Below are positions 24,686 through 47,791 of a DNA stretch of 64,000 nucleotides, piece after piece (the stretch's first letter is position 1; the number at the start of each line of letters is the position of its first letter). The DNA is from a virus, in the IMG/VR virus record IMGVR_UViG_3300025085_002722, positions 1 to 64,000 of that record; one strand, written 5' to 3'. The notes beneath the pieces were generated by a model. That model searched no databases. It was not told where the DNA came from and was given only the letters and a program-made list of their open reading frames with translations. Made by a program: the position numbers and the translations under genes.

Positions 24686-25462
24686 ATGAGAGTATTAATT
24701 TTTGGTTTGCCAGGTAGTGGTAAAACATACTTGGCAGAACGACTAGTTGAATATTTAGGCGACAAAGTTGCTTGGTTCAACGCAGATAAAGTCAGAGAAG
24801 AAGCAGACGATTGGGACTTCTCTGAAGAAGGTAGATTAAGACAGAATCAGCGAATGTTGTCTTTGTGTGAAAACGCAGAAGCAGAAGGCAAGATTGCAAT
24901 CGCAGATTTTGTTGCTCCTTTTGAAAAGGCAAGAAATAATTTTAGTGCTGACTATGAAATATTTGTAGACACAATAAAGGAAGGTAGGTTTGAAGACACT
25001 AATAAAGTATTTGAAAGACCTTATGTGTCAGACTACAATGTACACGAACAACGTGGCGATGTAGATGCTAAAATAATTGCTTATGAAATTGGACAAAGAT
25101 TTATATGGGACAACCAAGCACCCACAACACAAATGCTTGGAAGATTTCAACCTTGGCATCCTGGGCACCAAGCATTGTTCGACAGAGCATTAGCAAAACA
25201 CGGACAGGTGTTTTTGATGGTTAGAGATATGCCAACAGATGAAAAGAATCCTTTTCCAGCATATGAAGTTATAGAAAACTTACAACAGAGTTTATATAAA
25301 TTTGCTGGCAAGGTAAAAATACAAGTTGTACCTAACTTGTTAAACATAACGTATGGTAGAGATGTTGGATATAAAATTGAGCAAGAAGTTTTTGACGATG
25401 CTATACACGATATCAGTGCTACTAAAATACGTGAACAAATGAGAGAAGAAGGAAAACTGTAA
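24686..25462 (+). CDS. Fusion of APS-kinase-like domain and NMN-adenylyltransferase-like domain
   Basis: Residues 1-120 resemble adenylylsulfate kinase: P-loop GLPGSGKT (7-14), NADKVREEADDWDFSEEGR (compare the GFSEEDR block of CysC), and FVAPFEKAR (compare the ISPYRADR-type block). APS kinase makes PAPS, the donor for sulfation. Residues 145-258 belong to the HxGH nucleotidylyltransferase superfamily: GRFQPWHPGH (152-161) and ISATKIR (243-249), closest in look to NMN adenylyltransferases. Which substrates the phage enzyme uses is unknown. ATP sulfurylase shares the HxGH fold, so a PAPS-synthase-like activity cannot be excluded. It begins directly after the acidic gene and its stop overlaps the MazG start. 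Confidence 0.78.
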   Translation: MRVLIFGLPGSGKTYLAERLVEYLGDKVAWFNADKVREEADDWDFSEEGRLRQNQRMLSLCENAEAEGKIAIADFVAPFEKARNNFSADYEIFVDTIKEGRFEDTNKVFERPYVSDYNVHEQRGDVDAKIIAYEIGQRFIWDNQAPTTQMLGRFQPWHPGHQALFDRALAKHGQVFLMVRDMPTDEKNPFPAYEVIENLQQSLYKFAGKVKIQVVPNLLNITYGRDVGYKIEQEVFDDAIHDISATKIREQMREEGKL

Positions 25463-25785
25463 TGGCAGACGACCACGGTATGGCAACAGCATATCACTTA
25501 ATGAGAAAAATTACGCAATGGCACCATGATCGAAATCTTATTGATGGTGCAACAGACAAAGATCAATTAGCAAAACTCATACAAGAAATGGGCGAACTAA
25601 GTGACAATATTTGTAAAGGTAAAGACGTTGCAGACGACATTGGTGATATGATTGTTGTATTAATAAACATAGCAGAAAGGAACGGCCTTACTATAGAGGA
25701 CTGTTTAGAACAAGCATGGAATGATATCAAAGACCGTAAAGGTAAAATGGTAGATGGTATCTTTGTTAAAGAAGGAGATTTATGA
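25462..25785 (+). CDS. MazG-like nucleotide pyrophosphohydrolase
   Basis: This 107-residue protein has the all-alpha NTP pyrophosphatase signature: EMGE in LAKLIQEMGELSDNI, then DDIGDMIVVLINIAE, giving the metal-binding E-x2-E and D-x2-D pairs. Such enzymes hydrolyse (d)NTPs to monophosphates or lower ppGpp in some phage proposals. It overlaps the stop of the kinase fusion and the start of metK. A second, shorter MazG-like gene lies at 29221. Confidence 0.85.
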   Translation: MADDHGMATAYHLMRKITQWHHDRNLIDGATDKDQLAKLIQEMGELSDNICKGKDVADDIGDMIVVLINIAERNGLTIEDCLEQAWNDIKDRKGKMVDGIFVKEGDL

Positions 25786-26873
25786 GTTACGAATTTACAA
25801 GCGAAAGTGTCAGCATAGGACACCCAGACAAAATAGCAGACTTAATATCAGATGCTGTAGCAACATATTTGATAAATGGCAAACAAACACATAGAGCGGC
25901 TGTAGAAACATTAGTGACAACTAATATGGTTACACTAGCAGGTGAATACAAAAGCGATATGTTTGACAAGGCAGAGATTGAAAAAATTGTTAGAGACGTT
26001 GTTAGAGGTATTGGGTACGAACAAGAAGGCTTTCACTGGAAACATCTAAAAGTATATAATGAACTACACGGGCAGTCCCCAGATATTGCATTAGGTACAG
26101 ATGATTTTGGTGCAGGTGATCAAGGACTTATGTTTGGATATGCTTGTAATGAAACTCCTAATTATATGCCAAGTGCTATTCATTACAGTCACAAAATTCT
26201 AAAAAGACTTCAAGTAGAAAGAGAAGGCGGTGAAGACTGGATTGGACCAGATAGTAAAGCACAGGTAACAATGGCGTATGACAATGTAAATACACCAACA
26301 GGTATTACAAAAATTGTATGCAGTACGCAACATAATGATGATGTAAGTATTCAAATGGTACGTGATAGAGTTGAGCAAATTATTAGAGATGAAATCACAG
26401 ATCAAGATTTAAGTAATACAGAATTCTTAATCAATCCAACTGGTAGATTTGTTATCGGTGGACCAGATGGAGATACTGGACTTACTGGAAGAAAAATTAT
26501 CGTTGATACTTATGGCGGTTATGCTCCACATGGAGGTGGTGCTTTTTCAGGTAAAGACTGTACTAAAGTTGACAGAAGTGCGGCCTACATGGCACGTTAC
26601 TTGGCAAAGAATATTGTAGCAAGTGGTAAGGCAAATAATGCCACAGTACAATTAAGTTATGCAATTGGTGTAGTAGAACCAACTAGTTTGTATGTGTATG
26701 CAGACGGACAAGTAAGAACAGACTTAGTAGATTGGATTACAGAAAATGTTGATCTAACACCAAAAGGTATTATTGATAAATTTAATTTGTTTAGTTTAGA
26801 TTTAACTACAACCACATTATATGGGCACTTCGGAAAAGACAATCTTCCGTGGGAACAAATTGATTTATTTTAA
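25782..26873 (+). CDS. metK: S-adenosylmethionine synthetase
   Basis: MetK makes S-adenosylmethionine from methionine and ATP. This 363-residue protein has GHPDK at 13-17, the block GAGDQGLMFGYAC, NPTGRFVIGGPDGDTGLTGR, the P-loop-like GGGAFSGKD and a C-terminal LYGHFG segment, all in order. The protein is near complete length (bacterial forms are about 380-390). It overlaps mazG by 4 bases and shares its stop with the apt start. In phages it may feed DNA or other methylation, or replenish SAM destroyed during infection. Confidence 0.95.
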   Translation: MSYEFTSESVSIGHPDKIADLISDAVATYLINGKQTHRAAVETLVTTNMVTLAGEYKSDMFDKAEIEKIVRDVVRGIGYEQEGFHWKHLKVYNELHGQSPDIALGTDDFGAGDQGLMFGYACNETPNYMPSAIHYSHKILKRLQVEREGGEDWIGPDSKAQVTMAYDNVNTPTGITKIVCSTQHNDDVSIQMVRDRVEQIIRDEITDQDLSNTEFLINPTGRFVIGGPDGDTGLTGRKIIVDTYGGYAPHGGGAFSGKDCTKVDRSAAYMARYLAKNIVASGKANNATVQLSYAIGVVEPTSLYVYADGQVRTDLVDWITENVDLTPKGIIDKFNLFSLDLTTTTLYGHFGKDNLPWEQIDLF

Positions 26874-27421
26874 TGAAAGAATTTTGGCAAGACCTAAAAC
26901 AAGCAATTAGGACTGTACCTGATTTTCCTATTCCAGGAATACAATTTAGGGACATTACTAGTCTAATTGAAAACCCTTTAGCATTTAATAAGGCATTAGT
27001 TGACCTAACCAATGTTGCATTTCAAGGTACAAAAATTATTGGTATAGAAAGCAGAGGATTTGTGTTTGGAGCACCGTTGGCAAGAGATATGGATGTTCCT
27101 TTTATTATGGCTCGTAAGCCAGGTAAGTTACCAAACGAAACCTATAAAAAAGAATACCAACTAGAGTATGGCACAGCAACATTAGAGATACAAAAAAATA
27201 CAGAAATATTACCAGATGACAAAGTTGTGATTGTTGACGACTTAATTGCAACAGGTGGCACAGCACTTGCCTGTGCAGAATTAGTACATGCAAATTGGAA
27301 TGTGCCTAAAGAAAATATTTTAGTTGTGGCTGTAATAAACTTGACAGACTTAGGCGGCTCTGCTAAAATAGTTGCTGAAGGGTATAAAGTTAGAACCCTA
27401 ATTGAATACGAGGGCGAGTAA
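26873..27421 (+). CDS. apt: Adenine phosphoribosyltransferase
   Basis: Apt converts adenine and PRPP to AMP. The PRPP-binding motif is VVIVDDLIATGGTA. The flexible-loop region with RKPGKLPNETYKKEYQLEYG and the N-terminal FPIPGIQFRDIT block are diagnostic. Its 182 residues match the usual length. Its overlap with metK suggests a joint pathway: adenine is released when SAM-derived S-adenosylhomocysteine is broken down, and Apt would recycle it for nucleotide synthesis. No nucleosidase gene is visible in the window. Confidence 0.93.
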   Translation: MKEFWQDLKQAIRTVPDFPIPGIQFRDITSLIENPLAFNKALVDLTNVAFQGTKIIGIESRGFVFGAPLARDMDVPFIMARKPGKLPNETYKKEYQLEYGTATLEIQKNTEILPDDKVVIVDDLIATGGTALACAELVHANWNVPKENILVVAVINLTDLGGSAKIVAEGYKVRTLIEYEGE

Positions 27422-34216: not shown

Positions 34217-34483
34217 ATGTCCTTAAATCACAGATCAATTCTACAAGAACTTAACTCAATAGTTTCAGAAAGAGACAAATTAAATGTAATTGAGTCTAGA
34301 GGCAATCATATTATTAAAAGTGCCTTAAATCTTATTGAATTAATACAAGAAAACTTTGACGAAGCAGAGGCGTTAGATCTTCAACGACGTCTGATAAATT
34401 CTATTAAAGGTAATAGACCTGAAAGATTTGTTAAGGGCGTACAGATTATTAAAGAATCAAGGTCCAAAACAAATGAAGATTAA
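34217..34483 (+). CDS. Small helical protein, 88 aa
   Basis: This 88-residue protein is predicted all-helical and amphipathic (ILQELNSIVSERDKLNVIES, then SALNLIELIQENFDEAEALD). I do not recognise it. It is the first gene after a late promoter with a good CGGAG ribosome-binding site, and its last codons overlap the start of the next gene by 11 bases. Late timing suggests a virion or assembly role. Confidence 0.7.
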   Translation: MSLNHRSILQELNSIVSERDKLNVIESRGNHIIKSALNLIELIQENFDEAEALDLQRRLINSIKGNRPERFVKGVQIIKESRSKTNED

Positions 34484-35267
34484 CGAAGTCATATTACGCG
34501 AAGAGGATAGTTTAGCAGACTATCAAAAAAAAGCACCTGCTAAAAAATGGAAAAACATTGTTAGTGATCCAGCATACTCTCATGTAGAATTTGAAGTTGA
34601 CGGCTATCCGTACAAAGGATATATAGACAATAAAGCCAATATATTTTATGTATATGACGAAAGGCAACAAGATTTTATTCCTGCAGATCCTTCTTTTACT
34701 AGAAGAGCATTTCAAAGAAACACATCAGCAAGAATTAAAAACCTATTAAACTTTAAAAGATGGGACGATGTTAAAGCATGGTGGGATGCCACTAATCAAG
34801 ATAAGCCAGGCGCAGGTGTTGCCGCTAGGTATCAAGATGACAACTGGTTTGTAAAAGGCATGGCAACAGTTGGAGCCAGAGCAGGTGGTAAATTAGATAA
34901 CTATATTAAAAATCGTAGAACTAATAAACAACAGGGCACTACATGGGAACAAGTGTATGGTGTCCAACCTCCAAAACCTGGTGATAAAATACAATGGAAA
35001 ACTAGCGATAATGTTTTAAAAACTGGTGAGTTTATACAATTTACAGCAGATTCAGACGGCGACGGAGTACCAGATGTACAAATAAAAGGATTCTTTAACC
35101 CAGATAACCCAAAACAATCAACTACAACAGGTATCCCTAGTAAAAAAATTATCAGTATTAACGGTGTTAAACTTGTAACACAAAAATTATCAGGTAAGCA
35201 AAAGAAAAAATTAACTACACTAGATCCTGCAGATTCAGGAATAGAAAAAATAGACACGAGTTATTAA
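34473..35267 (+). CDS. Predicted internal head protein with capsid-targeting-like N-terminus, 264 aa
   Basis: The start MKINEVILREEDS fits a motif shared by several genes here and resembles T4 capsid-targeting peptides, with a possible prohead protease site after LRE. I use the ATG at 34473; upstream in-frame codons lie inside the previous gene. The protein contains a Trp/Lys-rich central region and a C-terminal beta domain with the acidic loop TADSDGDGVPDVQIKG, which resembles a calcium-binding DxDxDG loop. The function is unknown. Overlap with flanking genes indicates one operon. Confidence 0.68.
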   Translation: MKINEVILREEDSLADYQKKAPAKKWKNIVSDPAYSHVEFEVDGYPYKGYIDNKANIFYVYDERQQDFIPADPSFTRRAFQRNTSARIKNLLNFKRWDDVKAWWDATNQDKPGAGVAARYQDDNWFVKGMATVGARAGGKLDNYIKNRRTNKQQGTTWEQVYGVQPPKPGDKIQWKTSDNVLKTGEFIQFTADSDGDGVPDVQIKGFFNPDNPKQSTTTGIPSKKIISINGVKLVTQKLSGKQKKKLTTLDPADSGIEKIDTSY

Positions 35268-36535
35268 TGAGAGCAGTCGATCTTACTAAAGGATACTTAA
35301 CTGAATGTGTGATTCATCACAGACTAGATGAAAGCAAAAACACTCACCTTGAACATTTAGAAGATTTAATTTTTAATGACGGATTACCTGGAGGTAAACA
35401 AGCAATACAATACCTTCACAGTTTTCATGAGATGCTGAAAGGTAGTGCTAAAACAAAATTCAACTTAACAACAAAATGGGACGGTGCTCCAGCAGTATTT
35501 GTAGGTACAGACCCAGCAGACGGTAAGTTTTTTGTAGGTACTAAAAGTGTATTCAACAAAAGAAATCCATTAGTAAACAAAAGCATCGAAGACATCAAAG
35601 CAAATCACGAAGCAGAAGGCTTACAAGAAAAATTAATTAGTGCATTTATGCATTTACAAAAATTAAATTTTAAAGGAAAAGTTGTACAAGGAGATTTACT
35701 GTACACAGACGACAGCATATCAGAAGCAAATATCAAAGGCGAAGAATTTATAGTGTTTAAACCAAACACAATTATATATGCCATTCCTAAAAACAGTAAT
35801 CTTGCAAATGATATTCTACGTTCAAAAATAGGCATAGTGTTTCACACAGAATATGTTGGCGGTGGCGGATTAGCAGACTTGTCAGCAAAGTTTGGGTTCG
35901 ACGCAAGTAGTTTAGGCAGTCACCCTGATGTCTGGCACAGAGATGCAATCATAAGAGACTACTCAGGGCAAGTTACTTTTACACAAGAAGAGTCACAAGA
36001 AATGGCTGAACTAATTAACAATGCAGATCAAAACTTGAAAGCAGTTACAGATTTAGACTTTCTTAAAAATAACGAATTTGGTGATGATTTAAGAACAAGA
36101 ATCAAAGCAAGTGTAAATAAAATTATCAGAGAATTAGTAGGTTTCGAACAAGATCCAAAAGTATTTGCTCAAAGATTTATTGCAGAGTATAAAGGCACAC
36201 TCAAATCAGCAGTTGAAAAACTAAAAAGTGATGACGGTAAAGTAAGAAAAACAAAATTAATGATAGACGGTATTAAATTTTTAGAAAGCAACCAAGAAGA
36301 GATAGAAAAAGCATACGTTGTGTATTTAGATTTGATCAAAGCAAAAGAAATGATAATTAAAAAATTAGCAAACATAAGACAAATAGACACGTTTGTACAA
36401 AACCAAGAAGGCGACTATGATGTTACAGGTGAAGAAGGCTTTGTTGCTGTTGATCATATTGGAAACGCAATTAAATTAGTTGACAGATTAGACTTTAGTG
36501 TTAAGAATTTTGGTACAGGGAGACCAGGAGCATAA
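35267..36535 (+). CDS. Ligase-like nucleotidyltransferase, possible internal head protein
   Basis: This 422-residue protein has the KxDG active-site motif of DNA/RNA ligases and capping enzymes at residues 70-73 (TTKWDGAPAVFVG), and late EGFVAVDHIGNAIKLV (about 390-405), which resembles the EGxV and KL motifs IV and V. Between them is GDLLYTDD and a helical insertion near 270-380. Similar ligase-like proteins occur in marine T4-like phages. The N-terminus MRAVDLTKGYLTE fits the capsid-targeting-like motif with an LTE site. Whether it seals nucleic acid is untested. It begins on the stop codon of the preceding gene. Confidence 0.7.
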   Translation: MRAVDLTKGYLTECVIHHRLDESKNTHLEHLEDLIFNDGLPGGKQAIQYLHSFHEMLKGSAKTKFNLTTKWDGAPAVFVGTDPADGKFFVGTKSVFNKRNPLVNKSIEDIKANHEAEGLQEKLISAFMHLQKLNFKGKVVQGDLLYTDDSISEANIKGEEFIVFKPNTIIYAIPKNSNLANDILRSKIGIVFHTEYVGGGGLADLSAKFGFDASSLGSHPDVWHRDAIIRDYSGQVTFTQEESQEMAELINNADQNLKAVTDLDFLKNNEFGDDLRTRIKASVNKIIRELVGFEQDPKVFAQRFIAEYKGTLKSAVEKLKSDDGKVRKTKLMIDGIKFLESNQEEIEKAYVVYLDLIKAKEMIIKKLANIRQIDTFVQNQEGDYDVTGEEGFVAVDHIGNAIKLVDRLDFSVKNFGTGRPGA

Positions 36536-37310: not shown

Positions 37311-37892
37311 ATGAGAATCGACGAAGTAATAATCCAAGAAATCAGTCAGGCACAAAAAGATGCAATGAAACAGATGCGAGATATCCATATTCAGCGAAGA
37401 ATACAGGGTGTTGGTACTGATACATCTACATATGGTCGCGATATGGGGCAGGCAGTTGGAACAGATGTAGAGGTGGGAGATTTAAAAAATGTACCTGATA
37501 AAGGCACTACTGATGCCGATGTAAGAGGCACGTCACAAAAAGATAAAATAAGCAAAAGGACAGAGCCTCGTAAAAAAGACGGTCCTAGTGATGCTGAGTT
37601 AAGAGCCAAAGCAAGAACAGCCGCACTAAAAGGTACATCACGTAGAGGATTAAACACCAAAGACGGTGATGATGTTAGAACTGGTAGCGATGGCAGAAAA
37701 TTAAGACATCAAAAATACTACGGTAATCCTGCATTTGATCCTGATGCAGAATACGATTCAGTACTACCAAGTTTTGGCATTAAAAAAGGTCTTTCAAAAG
37801 CAAGAAATACAGTAGCATCTTATATCCGAAATCCAAGCGATACAATGGCTAATTTACGATATAAATTTAAAGATTTACTGTCTGGAAAGTAA
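37311..37892 (+). CDS. Basic predicted internal head protein, 193 aa
   Basis: The N-terminus MRIDEVIIQEISQ fits the shared capsid-targeting-like motif, with a possible cleavage after IQE. The remainder is hydrophilic, rich in Arg, Lys, Asp and Gly, and looks largely disordered, with a more ordered C-terminal 50 residues (FGIKKGLSKARNTVASYI). This fits a DNA-associated internal protein. The ATG follows a late promoter by exactly five bases. No family is recognised. Confidence 0.7.
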   Translation: MRIDEVIIQEISQAQKDAMKQMRDIHIQRRIQGVGTDTSTYGRDMGQAVGTDVEVGDLKNVPDKGTTDADVRGTSQKDKISKRTEPRKKDGPSDAELRAKARTAALKGTSRRGLNTKDGDDVRTGSDGRKLRHQKYYGNPAFDPDAEYDSVLPSFGIKKGLSKARNTVASYIRNPSDTMANLRYKFKDLLSGK

Positions 37893-39030: not shown

Positions 39031-39309
39031 ATGAGAATAGTTGAAGTAGAAGGAGTAATGGAGGCCAAAATGGTCTGGGCCAAGCGAGGCAGTAAAATTG
39101 TTCGTAAGGTCAGATGTACTAGTGGCCCACGCAAAGGCAGAATGGTGTCTAATGCAGGTCAATGCTCAAAACCTATCAACTTAAAAAAACGCATGACGCT
39201 CAAAAAGACCAGAGCAAAAATGGGTAGAAGAATGGCAAGGAGAGCCGCAAGAACAAAAAGGCGTAATCCAGTTAGCAAAAGAGTTGCAAGGCTTAATAGA
39301 AGAAGATGA
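39031..39309 (+). CDS. Highly basic predicted internal head protein, 92 aa
   Basis: The first residues MRIVEVEGVMEAK fit the shared capsid-targeting-like motif with a possible site after VME. From residue 14 the protein is dominated by Arg and Lys, with the block VRCTSGPRKGRMVSNAGQC and a C-terminal Arg-rich tail. It would bind DNA strongly. Similar basic proteins occur in other marine T4-like phages. A role in condensing packaged DNA is likely but inferred. Its stop overlaps the start of the giant gene by four bases. Confidence 0.72.
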   Translation: MRIVEVEGVMEAKMVWAKRGSKIVRKVRCTSGPRKGRMVSNAGQCSKPINLKKRMTLKKTRAKMGRRMARRAARTKRRNPVSKRVARLNRRR

Positions 39310-42300
39310 AACTAGCAGACTTATACGAATATAACAAAGGAATACAAGACCCAAATTCCAACGCAAAACAGTCAAATAAAAATGACGACGAAATGGAATT
39401 GGAGCCATTCACACCTGACCAAGAAAAGGAAGTAGCAAAAGGTTTTAAGGCACTAGGAGCCAAGTTAGGTCAGCCTATACAAAATCCTAAAATGGCCGCC
39501 AAAGGCATAAACAAGGCCATACAAGGCGACAAGCCAACACCACAGCAATTACAATCAAAATTACCAATTGATGTACAATTAACAAAAGCAATGCAGACTC
39601 CTGCATTGAGAAATCAATTAGCAAACATACTTAAAAAAGCAAACCAAATAGACATCGACGAAAACACCCTTGCTAAAAAAATATTAAAAAAATTAACAGG
39701 TAAAAAAGCACTAACAAAATTCAAAAGAAGATCTAAACTACTCAAAGAAGCAGATCCTACATTATGCGAAATAAATTTTAATAAAAAAGAAATAGTAAAA
39801 GGTTCGTTGGAACTGCCTATAAAATGTGGATTTGAAGCAGAAACATTTTTCTATTCAGTAGAAAGCAGTGGCGCCAGTGACGATGTAGACAACATGAGTA
39901 TCAGTGATATCGAATACGAATACGGTGATATGCCAGATAGTGCATATGAAGATTATCAGTCCTGGTTGTACACTAAAGGGCAAGATGAATACTTAGATGA
40001 CTTAATTACAGACAAAGTAAACGAAGTCAAAGAAGATGAAGACTGGTTAAACGAGTTTATTGACAGTAGCGATGGCCCAAGTTCAGAAGCAATAGAACAA
40101 TACAAAAAAGATTTTGAAGACGCCGATCCCAAAGAATATGAAAACCGTGAAGAAGATGGTTGGGAGTATATGAATTGGGTCAGAGAATATGTTGAAGAAG
40201 AATATGAAAACGAATATTTGATATGGTTAGAGGATGCTGTCAGAGAAGACAGCGACCTAGATCAAGAAGCCAAAGAACTTGCTGAAGGTGATTACAGCAT
40301 GGATGATTGGGTAAACGATACCTATGATTACATGAGTAGTTTCCTCGATGATTATGGTTTTGATTACAGTAGGTCAGGCGGTGATGTTGAAGGTGTAGCA
40401 GATGAATTAAATAACTGGATTAAAGATAATAGTAAATTTACAGACTATCCAGATTCAGGGGAATACGGCGAAACAAATACTACAACTGCTTGGTCAGTTG
40501 AGACTGACAGCAGTATAGATCCGGACGAAGGTGCCGGCGCAGAACTTATTTCTCCTGTATTTGATAGTCCAAGAGATATGCTTGAAGAAATGAAAAGTTT
40601 ATTTGACTGGAGCGAAACAAACTTTGGCACAAACAATTCCACAGGACTACATGTAACAATGAGTTGGCATGGTAAAAATCCTGATACAGTACAAGATGAA
40701 GACGGCGAATTTTGGGGAGATGAACCATCAGGACCAAACAAATTAAAAATGGCATTACTGTTAGGTGATGAATATTTACTTGCAGAATTTGGCAGGTTAA
40801 AAAACAGTTACACAAAAAGTCAATACAATAATGTATTAAAACATGCAGAAGGCATGAAACGTGGTGAGGCAAAAAGTTTTAAAGAATTTGAAAAGATACT
40901 CACAAAAGGCATAGACACTGGCAAGTTTAACAGTATACATTTTAAAAACGAAAAAGACAGAATAGCAGGAACCAATCTTGTAGAGTTTAGAATTGCCGGC
41001 GGTGCAAATTACAATGAAATGTATGAAAAAGTTGTTAAAGCAGTTATTAGATACGCAACTATCATGCAAGCCGGATATGAAAAAGACGCATATAAAAGAG
41101 ATTATGTTAATGCTGTGTTCAGGCTTTTGCGTAAATCACAAGAAATAGACCCTAAAAGATTAAAAGCATTATCAGTTGTTAATCACGAAGTTATAGACTC
41201 TGCTAAAAATATAGTAGGTAAAAAAGACTACTTTGATGTTATTAATTTTTTAAGCAATAGTGTTGAAAGTTTGAGATATTATGAAGAATTAAGCAAACCA
41301 GGTGCTGACAAAGAATGGTTAAAAAGTGTTAAAGAATATGAAAAAAATACTGGTACAAAATTAGATATAAAAGAAGTAGAAGAACGCGAACCAATAGAAG
41401 GTTATTTACAGCCAGACAGAATCAGACCAAGCAAAGGTGCGGCAAGCGAATTAAAAAAAGCACAAGAAAAATTTGCATCGGCTGTTACTATAATAGCAAG
41501 AGATATAGCAGACGGTAATAACAGAAGTACTGTTTCAGCAAAAGATATAGGCGCATTTAGAAAATATGCAAATTTAGTTAAGTTAGATGATAAAGAATTA
41601 GAAAAAATTGTCATGACAAAAATGGATGATTTTAACTGGGGTGATCCTGATAAAAGCAATATTAACAGATTGAAAAAAGGTATAGATACTTTATTCAAAA
41701 GAAATATAATTTCAGAACCAGAATATCTTACACCGCAAGATGCTGACAGGATTGCTACAGGTATGTGGCAATTTTATCAAACAGACGATGTAAAAGACAA
41801 TGCTAAAACTGACAAACTTGCAGAATTATTCATGCAATTAAATCCAAAAAATGATAAACCTAATGTTGTAGATATATTAAAAGATTTAATGCATGAAAGA
41901 CAACAAAATGGATTTAGTGCTAAACTAAAAGGCTCAGGTTGGAATACCGGTATTACTTTGATAGGCACAGGAAAAATTACCACACCAGGAGCATCTGCAG
42001 AATTATTAAAATTCTTAGAACCATATAGTGGTTACAAACACCCAACCGGCAAACAGCATCATATTAATATCAAAAGCGATGACCCTTATGCATCTGTGTT
42101 TGACATGAGACTTCGACAACGTTTAAGAGAAAGATTAGTACATATAAGAGAGTTAGAAACAGACGATCCAGAAAAAGCAACTAAACTACAGCAACAATTA
42201 GTCAAAATTGGACTTGAATTATTAGAAGGCCTAAAGCCTAGACCAGATCTTTGGGATGAAGATGATGACGGATTCGCCCAAATTAGACGGGGTAATGATG

Positions 42301-45300
42301 GAACAGCAGATTTGGCTTCACATAGTGATTTAGAACGTTGGAATAATACTATGGACAGGATTGTAAAATTAGAAAGTGAACTAACATCAAGCGATAAAAC
42401 ATATAATTTTTTTAGTGCGTATGACGACTATATTTTAGGTGTTATACATTTAGATAGATATTATTCTTGGAAAGAAAACAACGGACCTACGCAACATGCT
42501 GTTTTGAAAAACTTACACAAAGAAAGATTTGCATCAATTAAAAAATTCTTATCAGAATTTGATAAAGTATTCCGCAAAGAAGGCTTCTTGGATTTAAAAG
42601 CAGAAATACAAGCAAAAAATACATTAGATAGAAGAAATAGAGACTTTGAAAAGAATGTCAGAGATAATTCAAAAGGAAAACTAAACATACCAAGTCACAG
42701 TTGGATGTACATAGACAAAGACTTTTTTGATACAATAACAGATAAAAGTTATGGTGATAGAGAAGCATATTTAGATAATCATATAGACAACTTTAACAAA
42801 AATGTAAACAATACCAAAGTGTATGTTATACCTTCAAGTCACTGGAGTGATGCCGAAGATGCCACAAACGGTTTAGAACTTATAGATACATTTGAAAAAA
42901 ACAAAAACTATTATCACACTTGGAGAAAGAAAAATTATAAACGAGTAATCAACAAATTCCAGAACACATATGGGTATAGTTGGAAAAATTTAACCGACAA
43001 CGAAAAGTTTTATTCAGGCAACGGAGACTTGTATGCAAAACTCAAAGACATTGGTATCGAAATCACTCACAAAGGCGACAGTAGAAAAGGTGCACCTGGT
43101 CAAACAGATTTACTGTCAGACGAATTAACTAAGAATCCTACCAGCGGTGAACCACTAAACAGAAGTAGTGCAACAAGTTGGTCATTGAACAACGACGAAG
43201 CAAGCCAAAAACAATTTGATGCATTTGATTGGGAACAGTACCCAGCAAAAATGAAAGATATTGTTGCTAAGGTTATGAAGCAAGATCGATATGGTAGTTT
43301 TAAAGTAGCATTAGAAGATGTACTTAGAAAAGTTTTAGATGGTAAAGTGTCAATAGACAAAGAAGATTTAGGAAGACCTATAGACAGAATGGCGAATGCG
43401 GCAGGCATTGAAACAGACGATGGTGGTTCCTCAAACGGTATAGCAAGTAAAACAAATTGGAAAACTTTATCAGACTACTTAAAGATTGAAAGAGGTGTAA
43501 ATGATCAAGGTCCAAACTTACTTTTAAAAGTTTATAATCAATTTGATGGCAATCACGAATGGAGACCTCAAGAAACCGACGAGGATGGTAGAGACGTAAT
43601 TGGATTAAAAAGATGGGCCGCCGCAGTTAAAGAAGCAGAAAAATATATCAGAGACAACTACAATGTAAGTGGAGGAAACTACTTTAGAAAGAATGTAGAT
43701 GGCAGTGACGGCGACAATGTAAGCAGTATGTATAGTAATAATACAATATCAACATCACCAGAAAATGAGTTTGATTCAGATTACGACAAAGCCAGAGCAG
43801 ACCATCCAGGCTTTGATAGAATGATGAATCGTGGTATGCAAAATTACTTAGCACGTGGCGAAGTAAATGACCTAGTAGGATTTTTAAACAATCCAGACAA
43901 TGATAATGTTTTCAAATCGCAGGTTTTAAATACTATAACGAATCGAGGTGATATGGAAAACGGTCCTTTTGCTACTTTCCAAGATGCATTAGCAGTTACT
44001 CGTAGACAAGGCAATGAAAGTGTATTTGATAAATTTGATGCATTGCCTTTACAAGAACAGTTGCGTATTATAAATCAATCAAATGTATTAGAAAAATTTA
44101 CTGAAAGAAAATTATCTAAAGATGAAAAAGAAGACAAAGAAAAATACGTCAAAGGCATGAAGAAAAACAAAAAAGGTTTCAAAAAAAGATATGGAGATGA
44201 CGCAGAAGCAGTAATGTATGCAACCGCAACTAAGATGGCAAAGGAAAATAAAATAAATACTAATATGAAAAATGTTTTTGAACAGTTTGAAAATTTATCA
44301 CTAGAAAAGCAATTAGAAATATTGCACAGTCCTGTAGTAGAAGGATTTTTCAGTGACGTAGATGTTGACATGAGAGAGTTGTCATACAAAGCATTTGCTA
44401 AAAAATATCCAGAATACGCACATTTACATCCTGGTGCAGAAGAGTTATCTACAAAGCCAATCAAAATGAAAAAAGCACCTTACAATAAAGAACAGCATAT
44501 CAAGAACACATTTGCTAAATTTAAAAGAGACCACGGCGAAGCAAAAGCAAAAATAATGTTGGATAAAATGATGCAGAGAGGATACTTTGATAAGGACATG
44601 TCAGAAAGTTTACTGGGCATTGATATTTTAACCAGAACTAAAAAACTCACAGAAAATATGCCTAACAATAATAAATTAGCAATACTAAGAAGATTACTGT
44701 CAAGAACTTTTCCTGTAGGTGACTTAGATATGCAATTCCAAGCATATTTAGCCTTGCCAATACCAAAAATGATGACAGCATTTAGTCAATTAAAAAGCAT
44801 AAAAGGACCAGATGCATGTGCAAGGGATATACTTAGGCATTATGCAAAAAATAGATTACCAGATGCAGAAGTAAAGCAACTTGATCTCAATGAAAGTTAT
44901 ATTAGAGAAGATGCAGATGAAGACAGATTAAACAGTATAATGACTGCATTAGAAAATAATCCAAGTTTTGCAAAACGAGTTTACAAAATGTTAAAACTTG
45001 ATAAAGAATCAGCAGACCATTTGGACATCGAAGATAGACTTAAAAATAATGACACCGGTAAGGAAAACGATCATAGAATTAACAAGAATATCATGAGACA
45101 ATTAGTTACCTCTTTAGAACAACTAGATCATGATTTTGATGAATTAAATTCATTTGTTGAAACTTACGGACACACAGATTATGTAAACACAGAATTATTA
45201 AACAAGTCTGGTGTATTTAAAATTTCAGATATGCTGGTTGGTAGCGACACAGTATCTAAAGAATTTATAGATGATCTTTATGAAAAATTATTTGACTTTA

Positions 45301-45974
45301 GAATTAATATTTCTGGATCAAACAGAGGGCCAGGTGAACTTGGATTATGTTTACTGTCACCTAATGTAGAACTTGCTTCGGTAGGTGATATCAAAGTTAA
45401 TGGCGAAGAAATAGAAGTTAAAGGTGAGGTATCGTCAGGTGGCGGTAGAATGGTTAACGGTATTGACGACTTTAAGTTTAGTGGATTAGCACAGGTCAAA
45501 TCACAACTAGTACCATTTTATGAAAAGCATGATATTCCAGAAGAATTAAGAATTTACAATTTAAAAGGTGCAGTTGGCGGAGGCCGTAATCAGGGTCAGG
45601 CTCATATACTAGATCAAGCACAACAATTAGAACAAGTAAAACAAGGTGTAGGTGCTGAATTTTTAAAATTAATTGTTAGCACATATCAATTTGTTATTGA
45701 CTCAGAAGAAGAAGCAGAATTAACAGGTTCATTTATGAATATGGATAAGACTAGGTTCTTAACACTTGTAGGATTAATGTCATTTAAAAATTATGCATAT
45801 ATGTTAAACAAAAAAGGATTCAATAGATTAATATTTTTAAATTGGAGATATGATAAAGTAGTAAATTGTACAACAGAAGAATTTCCAAAATACAGTGAGC
45901 ATTTAGCATTTACAAGTTTAGATATGGCAGACAGTCAAAATGGTCCAGCAGTACAGGTATCAGTGTTAAAATGA
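39306..45974 (+). CDS. Giant 2222-aa predicted virion protein with amidoligase-like and nuclease-like domains
   Basis: The N-terminus [12 protein letters not shown] fits the capsid-targeting-like motif (possible site after LYE). About residues 170-470 resemble amidoligases (ATP-grasp-related peptide-bond-forming enzymes): CGFEAETFF (174-182), [19 protein letters not shown] (399-417) and [12 protein letters not shown] (about 445-456), with an acidic insertion between the first two. The middle is helical and charged. Residues near 1620-1650 contain [20 protein letters not shown], a block common in marine phage proteins. The C-terminus (GELGL at 2010, GDI at 2027, IEVK near 2036-2039, then SSGGGR) fits a PD-(D/E)XK nuclease. 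This suggests a very large protein packaged in the head and acting on entry. It overlaps both neighbouring genes by four bases. Confidence 0.78.
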
Positions 45975-47791
45975 GATTATACGAAGTAACTAAACCTGGA
46001 CAATGCCCAAGAACAAAAGCAACCGAATGCAGTTGCGAAAGGCTAAGGCAATTATCAGAAGCAGAAAAGCCTATAAAAGCAGTTGCAGTACTAGAACACG
46101 GCGATGCTAAAGGCATAATTAATTTTGTACAAAAGCCAGGTAAAGCAACAATTATTAGCGGTACTATTAGCGGTTTAACAGAAGGGTTACATGGATTTCA
46201 CATACACGAATTTGGTGATCTCAGTGATGGGTGCGATAGTGCAGGTGGTCATTATAATCCGCATGGTGTCGATCACGGCGATGTAGATAATGGACATATA
46301 GGCGACTTAGGAAATATAGAAGCCAACAGCAAAGGTGTAGCAGAATTTAAAATAAAATCCAAAACAATTCAATTACAAGGTGCTACAAGCATAGTTGGTA
46401 GAGCAGTTGTAGTACACGAAGACGAGGACGATTTAGGTAAAGGTGGTGACGAAGAAAGTTTAAAAACAGGCAACGCAGGTAACAGAGCAGGCTGTGGTGT
46501 AATAACATTATCTGAATTAACAGAATCAGCAATAGCAGATTTAGATAAAAATATAAGCGACAAACATTTCAAAAGAAATGAAATGCCGCAAGTTAAAGAA
46601 CCAGATTTAATAGATAATGAAATACCTTACAAAAAAGGCAAAATAAGTATAGTAAATATCAAACCAGTTCAAACAGATAGAGTACCAGGATTAGCACAAA
46701 AAGTTGCAAAAAACTTTCACGGCAAAGACAAGCCTTTTATACTAGACAAAAACAATTACTTAGTTAACGGACATCATAGATATGATGCGGCTAGATTACT
46801 GGGCATAGAAAAAGTAGATGCAATTAAAGTAGATGTGCCAATTGAATTATTAATGAAAAAATTTAGCCATACAACTAGTGATGCAATGGTCGAACATTTA
46901 AGTGACAAAGCATCGACACCAGAGATACATAACAAAGCATTACAAATGGCCAAAGATGCATACAGAAAGTCTAATGAGCAAATATCATTTACTAAATTAT
47001 ATGATAAAGCATTAGAAATTTTAGAACCTGCAAAAGTAGACGAAAACTTTGCAGACGGTAAGAAGAAAGGTAAAAGTCGTCCAGGCAGAGTTAAAAAAGC
47101 AGGAGCCAGTTGTAAAGGTTCTGTAACAAGTTTAAGAGCAAAGGCTAAAAAGTATAGTGGTGAACGTGGTAAAATGTATCACTGGTGTGCTAACATGAAA
47201 GGTGGCAAGAAAAAGAAAAATGAATCATTATTAGTATCAACATTTGATAATGAGTTTGTGAAAAAAGCAAAAGAATTATACAACGCAGGCCAACAAGGTC
47301 AATTGATTAGACACATATATAAATTTTCTAAAGAAAATTCAGAAAGAATACATCAAAAACCAGAACTGAAAAAGATGCTACAAGATATTTTTTATGAAGT
47401 ATCAGATAATTTTCAAGACGAGGATCAAATAGAAGAACTGCTATTCATAATAGATGATACATTGAGCAACCCAGTCAATGAATCAGCATTTGAAAATTTA
47501 AAATTACCAACTTGGATATCACATACCAGTTTAGAAAAATTATTTGCACAAGAGTACGGTCCTAGATACGGTGACTATGTTGCACATATGGATCTAGACA
47601 GTGACGACGACTTGGCAATGAATGCCAGTGGCATGGGCGATATGGCTTTTGAAATGGTTAAAGCAAATGACATTAAAGTTATGCAAAAATTCTTAGCACA
47701 AATGCCTGTGCAGTTCACAGTAGATGACCTTAGATTAGATAAAGGTATTCAAGTTTGGCATCTAGTTCAACAAAACAAAACGGTACATTAA
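45971..47791 (+). CDS. Cu/Zn superoxide dismutase fused to ParB-like domain, predicted internal head protein
   Basis: Residues 35-180 are a Cu/Zn superoxide dismutase with all expected ligands: His77 and His79 (FHIHEF), His94 (GGHYNP), His102, His109, Asp112 and His149 (VVVHEDEDD). The structural Cys88 and Cys175 and the active-site Arg172 (NRAGCG) are also present. There is no signal peptide; instead [10 protein letters not shown] fits the capsid-targeting-like motif. Residues 222-300 resemble a ParB/sulfiredoxin-like domain with [10 protein letters not shown] and [14 protein letters not shown]. Residues 350-410 hold a basic Cys-containing block ([20 protein letters not shown]), followed by a helical C-terminus. 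An early Cys cluster (C12, C20, C22) may bind metal. It would remove superoxide either in the virion or at entry. Confidence 0.88.

Follow-up and report, generated by a model that had tools for sequence, protein, structure and literature searches.

The gene at positions 35267..36535 (plus strand, ATG start) of the 64,000-nucleotide stretch of viral DNA analysed here (the window), which belongs to a virus record of 130,385 bases, encodes a protein of 422 aa of the DUF6267 family (PF19782), a predicted ligase-fold nucleotidyltransferase. On the whole the evidence favours a head-packaged ligase-type enzyme, with the sealing of RNA as its probable function, which would be delivered with the phage DNA. 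The open reading frame is a real gene and is under strong purifying selection, with dN/dS values of 0.034-0.075 against six relatives.

A widespread phage family without assigned function

The window protein is a member of Pfam DUF6267 over residues 25-417 (E 1.2e-102, 344.5 bits, with a curated cut-off of 27 bits) and is matched by phrog_455 with an E-value of 3.9e-97, neither entry carrying a function; the DUF6267 family is one of T4-like marine phages. A search of NCBIfam with the protein returned no match, and no Pfam family besides DUF6267 matched it at E <= 0.5 or 1. Homologues are present in 467 of 50,697 phage records, chiefly of cyanophages (Synechococcus, Prochlorococcus), and a search of 72,556 plasmid records found none. 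Scans of viral contigs yielded 21 loci with the single protein as query, at least 80 loci with alignment A1, of which 79 among those listed were new, and 80 loci with alignment A2; a scan of genome bins added 36 DUF6267 loci. Clustering at 90% identity retained 88 long and 64 short non-redundant sequences, with the loci L040, L087, L179 and L054, the phage-collection loci L022-L027, the fusions L220/L221, truncated ORFs and X-containing sequences left out beforehand. The alignments A3 (93 sequences) and A6 (58 sequences) were hand-picked from the non-redundant lists, A6 also from further short loci.

Searched by name, DUF6267 was not described in any paper found, nor did a head-packaged ligase turn up among titles and beginnings of abstracts in a search for virion-associated RNA ligases of phages. 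The ligase fold is known and so is the T4 head tag; their combination in one protein family was not found described in the literature searched.

Catalytic motifs

Across all 93 relatives of alignment A3, 24 positions are identical, namely H27, H30, K70, D72, G73, P75, F89, K93, Q141, D143, N167, Y171, H193, T194, Y196, N284, K360, E390, G391, V393, K403, R407, F410 and N414. The KWDG, EGFV and KLV motifs on which an earlier sequence-only reading of this DNA had relied are found at residues 70-73, 390-393 and 403-405, and their catalytic positions are among those conserved in 93 of 93 sequences. Motif I, KWDGAP (35474..35491), contains the predicted nucleophile K70 together with the likewise invariant D72, G73 and P75, while motif IV, EGFV (36434..36445), contributes E390, G391 and V393, and motif V, KLVDR at residues 403-407 (36473..36487), has a single lysine and the invariant R407. 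Between motifs I and IV lie three segments for which we infer the motif names: FFVGTK, residues 88-93 (35528..35545), with F89 and K93 invariant, proposed as motif Ia-like; QGD, residues 141-143 (35687..35695), with Q141 and D143 invariant, proposed as motif III-like; and PNTIIY, residues 166-171 (35762..35779), with N167 and Y171 invariant, proposed as motif IIIa-like. Two further elements, the N-terminal NxHLEHxED at residues 25-33 (35339..35365), with invariant H27 and H30, and the invariant, family-specific HTxY at residues 193-196 (35843..35854), fall with H27xxH30 and HTxY outside the standard ligase motif set.

Motifs I and IV and the first lysine of motif V are intact, as all are invariant in 93/93 relatives. 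The second position of motif V, however, is Val in 84 and Ile in nine sequences, in place of the second lysine of a K-x-K motif. The motif V residues of DpRNL, an enzyme placed in RNA ligase 2, are K175 and V177, the same K-x-V change (PMC4599027), so that Val or Ile at this position does not by itself exclude a ligase or a member of the superfamily.

Predicted fold and structural neighbours

The covalent nucleotidyltransferase fold claimed in the sequence-only reading is supported by two AlphaFold2 models along with the complete conservation of the catalytic positions. The model of the window protein has a pLDDT of 88.8 and a pTM of 0.85, with residues 1-23 mostly disordered, and that of a short relative of 296 aa a pLDDT of 94.3 and a pTM of 0.89. 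An unrelated predicted fold had been named as the outcome that would speak against the assignment; instead, the models gave a nucleotidyltransferase fold, with ligases in 48 of the best 50 VIA-align rows for the window model (the remaining two being DnaK helices) and in all of the best 50 for the short model. The Naegleria gruberi RNA ligase (NgrRnl) is the top match of the window model (Z 9.0, 185 aligned residues, 3.6 A), followed by REL1 (Z 7.8), Rnl1 (7.6), Rnl2 (7.5), tRNA ligase (7.4) and human LIG1 (6.5), and the Naegleria RNA ligase also leads the list of the short model (Z 8.8). K33 and E267/K279 of the short form fall about at K170 and E312/K326 of NgrRnl by offset arithmetic, not by residue alignment, the offset being taken from the range matched by VIA-align (2-293 of the short model against 143-339 of NgrRnl).

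A mainly helical stretch at about residues 240-370 (35984..36376), partly missing in the short form, sits between the core sheet and motifs IV/V in the window model and explains the distance of about 320 residues between motif I and motifs IV/V, in agreement with the helical insertion already suspected to part the motifs.

At the level of sequence profiles the family stands apart. Comparison of DUF6267 with 16 Rnl2 sequences by hhalign gave a probability of 0.1 and no profile link to T4 Rnl2, the models of RNA ligase 2 (PF09414) and DNA ligases (PF01068, PF01653) did not match the window protein, and ligase models are absent from the 25 most frequent of the 88 Pfam families matched by 93 DUF6267 members. 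A PDB sequence search with the single window protein returned nothing at E <= 10; a PDB search with the family profile gave weak matches, which fell mostly on helical or coiled-coil proteins along the insert and were rejected as composition. With Foldseek, neither model had a PDB match at E <= 0.001. The superfamily fold and motifs of a covalent nucleotidyltransferase are nevertheless supported for DUF6267 by the sequence conservation and the models, and a divergent branch of this (ligase/capping) superfamily, employed as head cargo by T4-like phages, would be the best explanation, one we hold with some confidence; as neither a profile link to Rnl2 nor another Pfam match was found, DUF6267 would lie outside every named ligase family.

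With respect to the substrate, RNA ligases head the structural lists of both models and an OB domain does not follow motif V, which favours RNA as a serious if uncertain candidate; a target other than RNA or DNA is rather doubtful, and DNA a little more so. A DNA ligase or nick sealer, packaged in the head to repair or circularise the genome on entry, is not a likely alternative. DNA ligases are among the structural matches too, as human LIG1 illustrates, and three of the records examined for ligases (G000, G003 and G004, which may be incomplete) gave no match to a PF09414, PF01068 or PF01653 ligase. On the other hand, RNA ligases rank above DNA ligases for both models, no OB-fold domain is visible in the window model, the chain of which ends just after motif V, and two related records (G001 and G002) already have separate matches to RNA and DNA ligases. 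Ligase redundancy therefore varies between records.

Just as unlikely, in our estimate, is an enzyme of the capping or AMPylation type, which would pass a nucleotide on to RNA or protein of the host without joining strands, comparable to T4 Alt, which is injected and has a chemistry that differs from the nucleotide transfer proposed here. In the Foldseek list of the short model the top 16 rows are ligases or capping enzymes, human capping enzymes included, at E-values that are not significant, and the conserved H27xxH30 and HTxY lie beyond the standard ligase motifs. A precedent for an injected effector is the T4 head protein IPI, which is known to inhibit host factors (PMC3012670). Against such an enzyme stand the VIA-align lists, which are filled by ligases and not by capping enzymes.

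The N-terminal leader as a proposed head tag

Residues 1-22 (35267..35332), of low confidence in the model, form a leader proposed to act as a capsid targeting sequence, and leaderless relatives start at the residues that follow. Two possible prohead-protease sites are present, LTE at residues 11-13 (35297..35305) and LDE at residues 20-22 (35324..35332), the latter directly before SKNTHLEH, where relatives show LxE and then [AS]KNxHLEH. Both [LI]xE sites (LTE13 and LDE22) are conserved in all 23 loci of the protein's own clade, the first as LTE, LIE or IKE.

In 72 of the 88 non-redundant complete long forms, [LIVM]xE occurs within 5 aa of the domain anchor. A stricter leader pattern is found in 48/88 long forms, compared with a mean of 0.65 and a maximum of 4 in 200 shuffles and with 52 among the 719 remaining ORFs of these loci. 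Leaders of T4 have aromatic residues at positions 4 and 7, Leu or Ile at position 8 and Glu at position 10. The exact spacing of the T4 IPIII leader (residues 4, 7, 8, 10) is present in 28/88 long forms, against a shuffled mean of 0.035 and 22/719 other same-locus ORFs, and is absent from the window protein itself. In IPIII, ten N-terminal residues are enough to direct a protein to the T4 head; positions 4 and 7 matter for this targeting, positions 8 and 10 for processing (PMC9026906). Isolates with a leader-bearing DUF6267 include HTVC008M, Melnitz and DLP6, and the copy of P-HM2 is leaderless. Cyanophage copies have no leader and start at M-x-KNTHLEH or nearby, and the short forms inspected have no leader.

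In the lineage of the window, the leader takes the form M[KR]-hydrophobic-x-[DE]-hydrophobic, which nine ORFs carry out of 137 non-overlapping ones with a length of 80 aa or more, counted over the window and loci L263-L266; seven of the nine cluster at 34.4-51.3 kb of the window (shuffled mean 0.35, maximum 3, 300 shuffles). Among the carriers of this leader type are the upstream gene of 264 aa (34473..35267, plus strand) and a gene of 193 aa (37311..37892, plus strand). The same leader is also seen on a 2222 aa protein (39306-45974, plus strand), for which Pfam gives nothing better than E 0.29, and on a 606 aa protein (45971-47791, plus strand), which has a Cu/Zn superoxide dismutase domain (PF00080, E 6.3e-44) and weak ParB-like matches and is possibly another head-packaged enzyme.

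A T4-type prohead protease and gp23 are both found in four of nine records with a long-form DUF6267, which are the four longest, and neither is matched in the other five, of about 72 kb or less. In the window's own record, which may be incomplete, the gp21 and gp23 models are silent, as are the controls.

An NMNAT-like partner and virion composition

An NMNAT-like enzyme with a HIGH motif is encoded within 3 kb downstream of DUF6267 in 26/49 long and 12/32 short loci holding enough DNA, and it carries a leader of its own in 12/12 short-locus and 8/26 long-locus partners (strict pattern). The two proteins are fused in S-PM2d (L022) and in the loci L220 and L221, and the phrog_455 profile spans both parts, columns 7-334 corresponding to DUF6267 and columns 406-748 to the NMNAT-like enzyme. 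In the S-PM2 record AJ630128.1 the DUF6267 match comes in two pieces, and in LN828717.1, from a deletion mutant, it is in one frame fused to a cytidylyltransferase domain. L220:1828-4635 and L221:288-3101, on contigs binned as Firmicutes, encode proteins of 936 and 938 aa with a leader, DUF6267, the NMNAT-like domain and an extra C-terminal part, which by eye resembles a PD-(D/E)xK nuclease and in L220:3700-4632 has no PHROG match. As 46 of 62 short DUF6267 forms are without an adjacent partner, a role in the head may be limited to part of the family.

Nor is there an adjacent NMNAT-like gene in the window lineage. The HIGH-type domain at 24686-25462 (plus strand) was considered as a partner and rejected; it is fused to an APS_kinase-like kinase as an NMNAT/cytidylyltransferase-like domain, has no leader and does not adjoin the DUF6267 gene. 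Further genes follow in this part of the window, at 25782-26873, the product of which belongs to phrog_1569 (function not given) and has an N-terminus that we take by eye to resemble S-adenosylmethionine synthetase, and at 26873-27421, with an N-terminus presumably, again by eye, resembling adenine phosphoribosyltransferase. Outside the window, on the same record, a 705 aa protein (L263:7202-9319) has an N-terminal HIGH-type nucleotidyltransferase (phrog_395, E 2e-6) and no leader, and may by its sequence be a distant candidate partner.

The NMNAT-like enzyme type has been found in the virions of S-SM1 (PMC3037559), S-SCSM1 (PMC9602691), S-SZBM1 as ORF140 (PMC9146016) and S-CREM2 (PMC10665884), with the caution of the authors that such proteins may be unpackaged leftovers in the particle preparation (PMC10665884, PMC9602691). 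The virion-found copies of S-SCSM1, S-SZBM1 and S-CREM2 carry leaders. When the profiles of DUF6267 and of these partners were compared, the leader was the only part that aligned (E 0.049, 11 columns). The gene that immediately follows the NMNAT-like one on its downstream side encodes an uncharacterised virion protein in both S-SCSM1 (ORF92, L229:15062-16624) and S-SZBM1 (ORF139, L226:7304-8677). ORF89 and ORF90 of the S-SCSM1 virion were considered as DUF6267 and rejected, neither being among the DUF6267 matches.

Relatives' leaders, in some cases with the exact T4 spacing, together with the detection in virions of leader-bearing NMNAT-like partners, support the head tag that the sequence-only reading had proposed, and packaging of the putative enzyme in the heads of the window virus is likely. 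The alternative, a leader unrelated to head targeting on an enzyme that works late within the cell, is considerably less probable. Such a late role would fit the lack of a leader in cyanophage copies and the virion table of S-SZBM1, where ORF139 and the partner ORF140 appear but ORF141, the leaderless DUF6267 protein encoded next to the partner, does not (PMC9146016); the literature examined contained no report of DUF6267 in virions. It would leave unexplained the leader statistics and T4 spacing in relatives, and the alignment of the leader alone with virion-found enzymes. It also fits poorly with the distribution of the partner gene, which lies within 40 nt of the long DUF6267 gene in 5/8 leaderless as compared with 1/68 leader-bearing copies (Fisher p 1.8e-5, relatedness ignored).

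Proposed role

The window protein is very likely an active covalent nucleotidyltransferase, as predicted. An assembly or DNA-condensing head protein built on a catalytically dead ligase fold, to which the virion-type leader and a motif V degenerate at one position would be suited, is very improbable given the 24 invariant positions in 93 diverse relatives, which include the other expected catalytic residues, the low dN/dS and the occurrence of the same K-x-V change in an RNA ligase 2, DpRNL (PMC4599027).

For the preferred head-packaged, RNA-sealing enzyme, the leader would bind the scaffold core during prohead assembly and would subsequently be cut off after [LI]xE by a gp21-type protease, upon which the mature protein would stay in the head and enter the host together with the DNA. 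In the host a Lys70-nucleotidyl intermediate would form, and the enzyme would seal broken nucleic-acid ends, most likely of RNA, before phage gene expression; RNA of host or phage that defence nucleases of the host have cut would be one example target. The phage probably injects in this way a ready-made repair enzyme with its DNA, and formation of a lysine-nucleotide adduct followed by the sealing of ends is the most likely activity of the putative enzyme. In many relatives, DUF6267 would work beside, or fused with, the NMNAT-like enzyme.

A more speculative and rather improbable extension is that the head delivers DUF6267 and its NMNAT-like neighbour as a single unit of two enzymes. The ligase-fold enzyme would spend NAD+ (or ATP) in sealing or modifying nucleic acids at entry and the partner would rebuild NAD+ from NMN, with the leader on either partner while the other rides along. 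This reading is compatible with the single-lysine motif V, which we take to be LigA-like, with the fusions and with the complementary leader pattern.

If the proposed role holds, a very common marine phage protein without known function becomes a testable enzyme, and a ligase-type nucleotidyltransferase would be present in the capsid ahead of all phage gene expression. It would also offer a possible explanation for the recurrence of NMNAT-like enzymes in cyanophage virions, and the leader pattern would provide a simple rule to find other head cargo in uncultured T4-like phages.

Comparison with known systems

By sequence, the window protein belongs to the same family as DUF6267, phrog_455 and the cyanophage cluster T4-GC 71, to which the present analysis newly adds the leader and the predicted ligase fold. 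With the internal head proteins IPI, IPII and IPIII of T4, 28/88 DUF6267 relatives share the short leader with the mature domain following directly, whereas the cargo is a predicted ligase-fold enzyme and the leader of the window lineage is modified. The NMNAT-like or cytidylyltransferase proteins of cyanophage virions (T4-GC 190, phrog_395) share the neighbourhood and leader type of DUF6267 and are sometimes fused to it, but as HIGH-type CTP_transf_like enzymes they belong to an unrelated fold family and do not adjoin the window gene. The likeness to NgrRnl, T. brucei REL1 and T4 Rnl1/Rnl2 consists in the predicted nucleotidyltransferase domain fold, KxDG, EGxV and the motif V lysine, while DUF6267 differs from these ligases by the helical insert before motif IV, the K-x-V-x-R form of motif V, its own NxHLEHxED and HTxY motifs and the proposed head-targeting leader.
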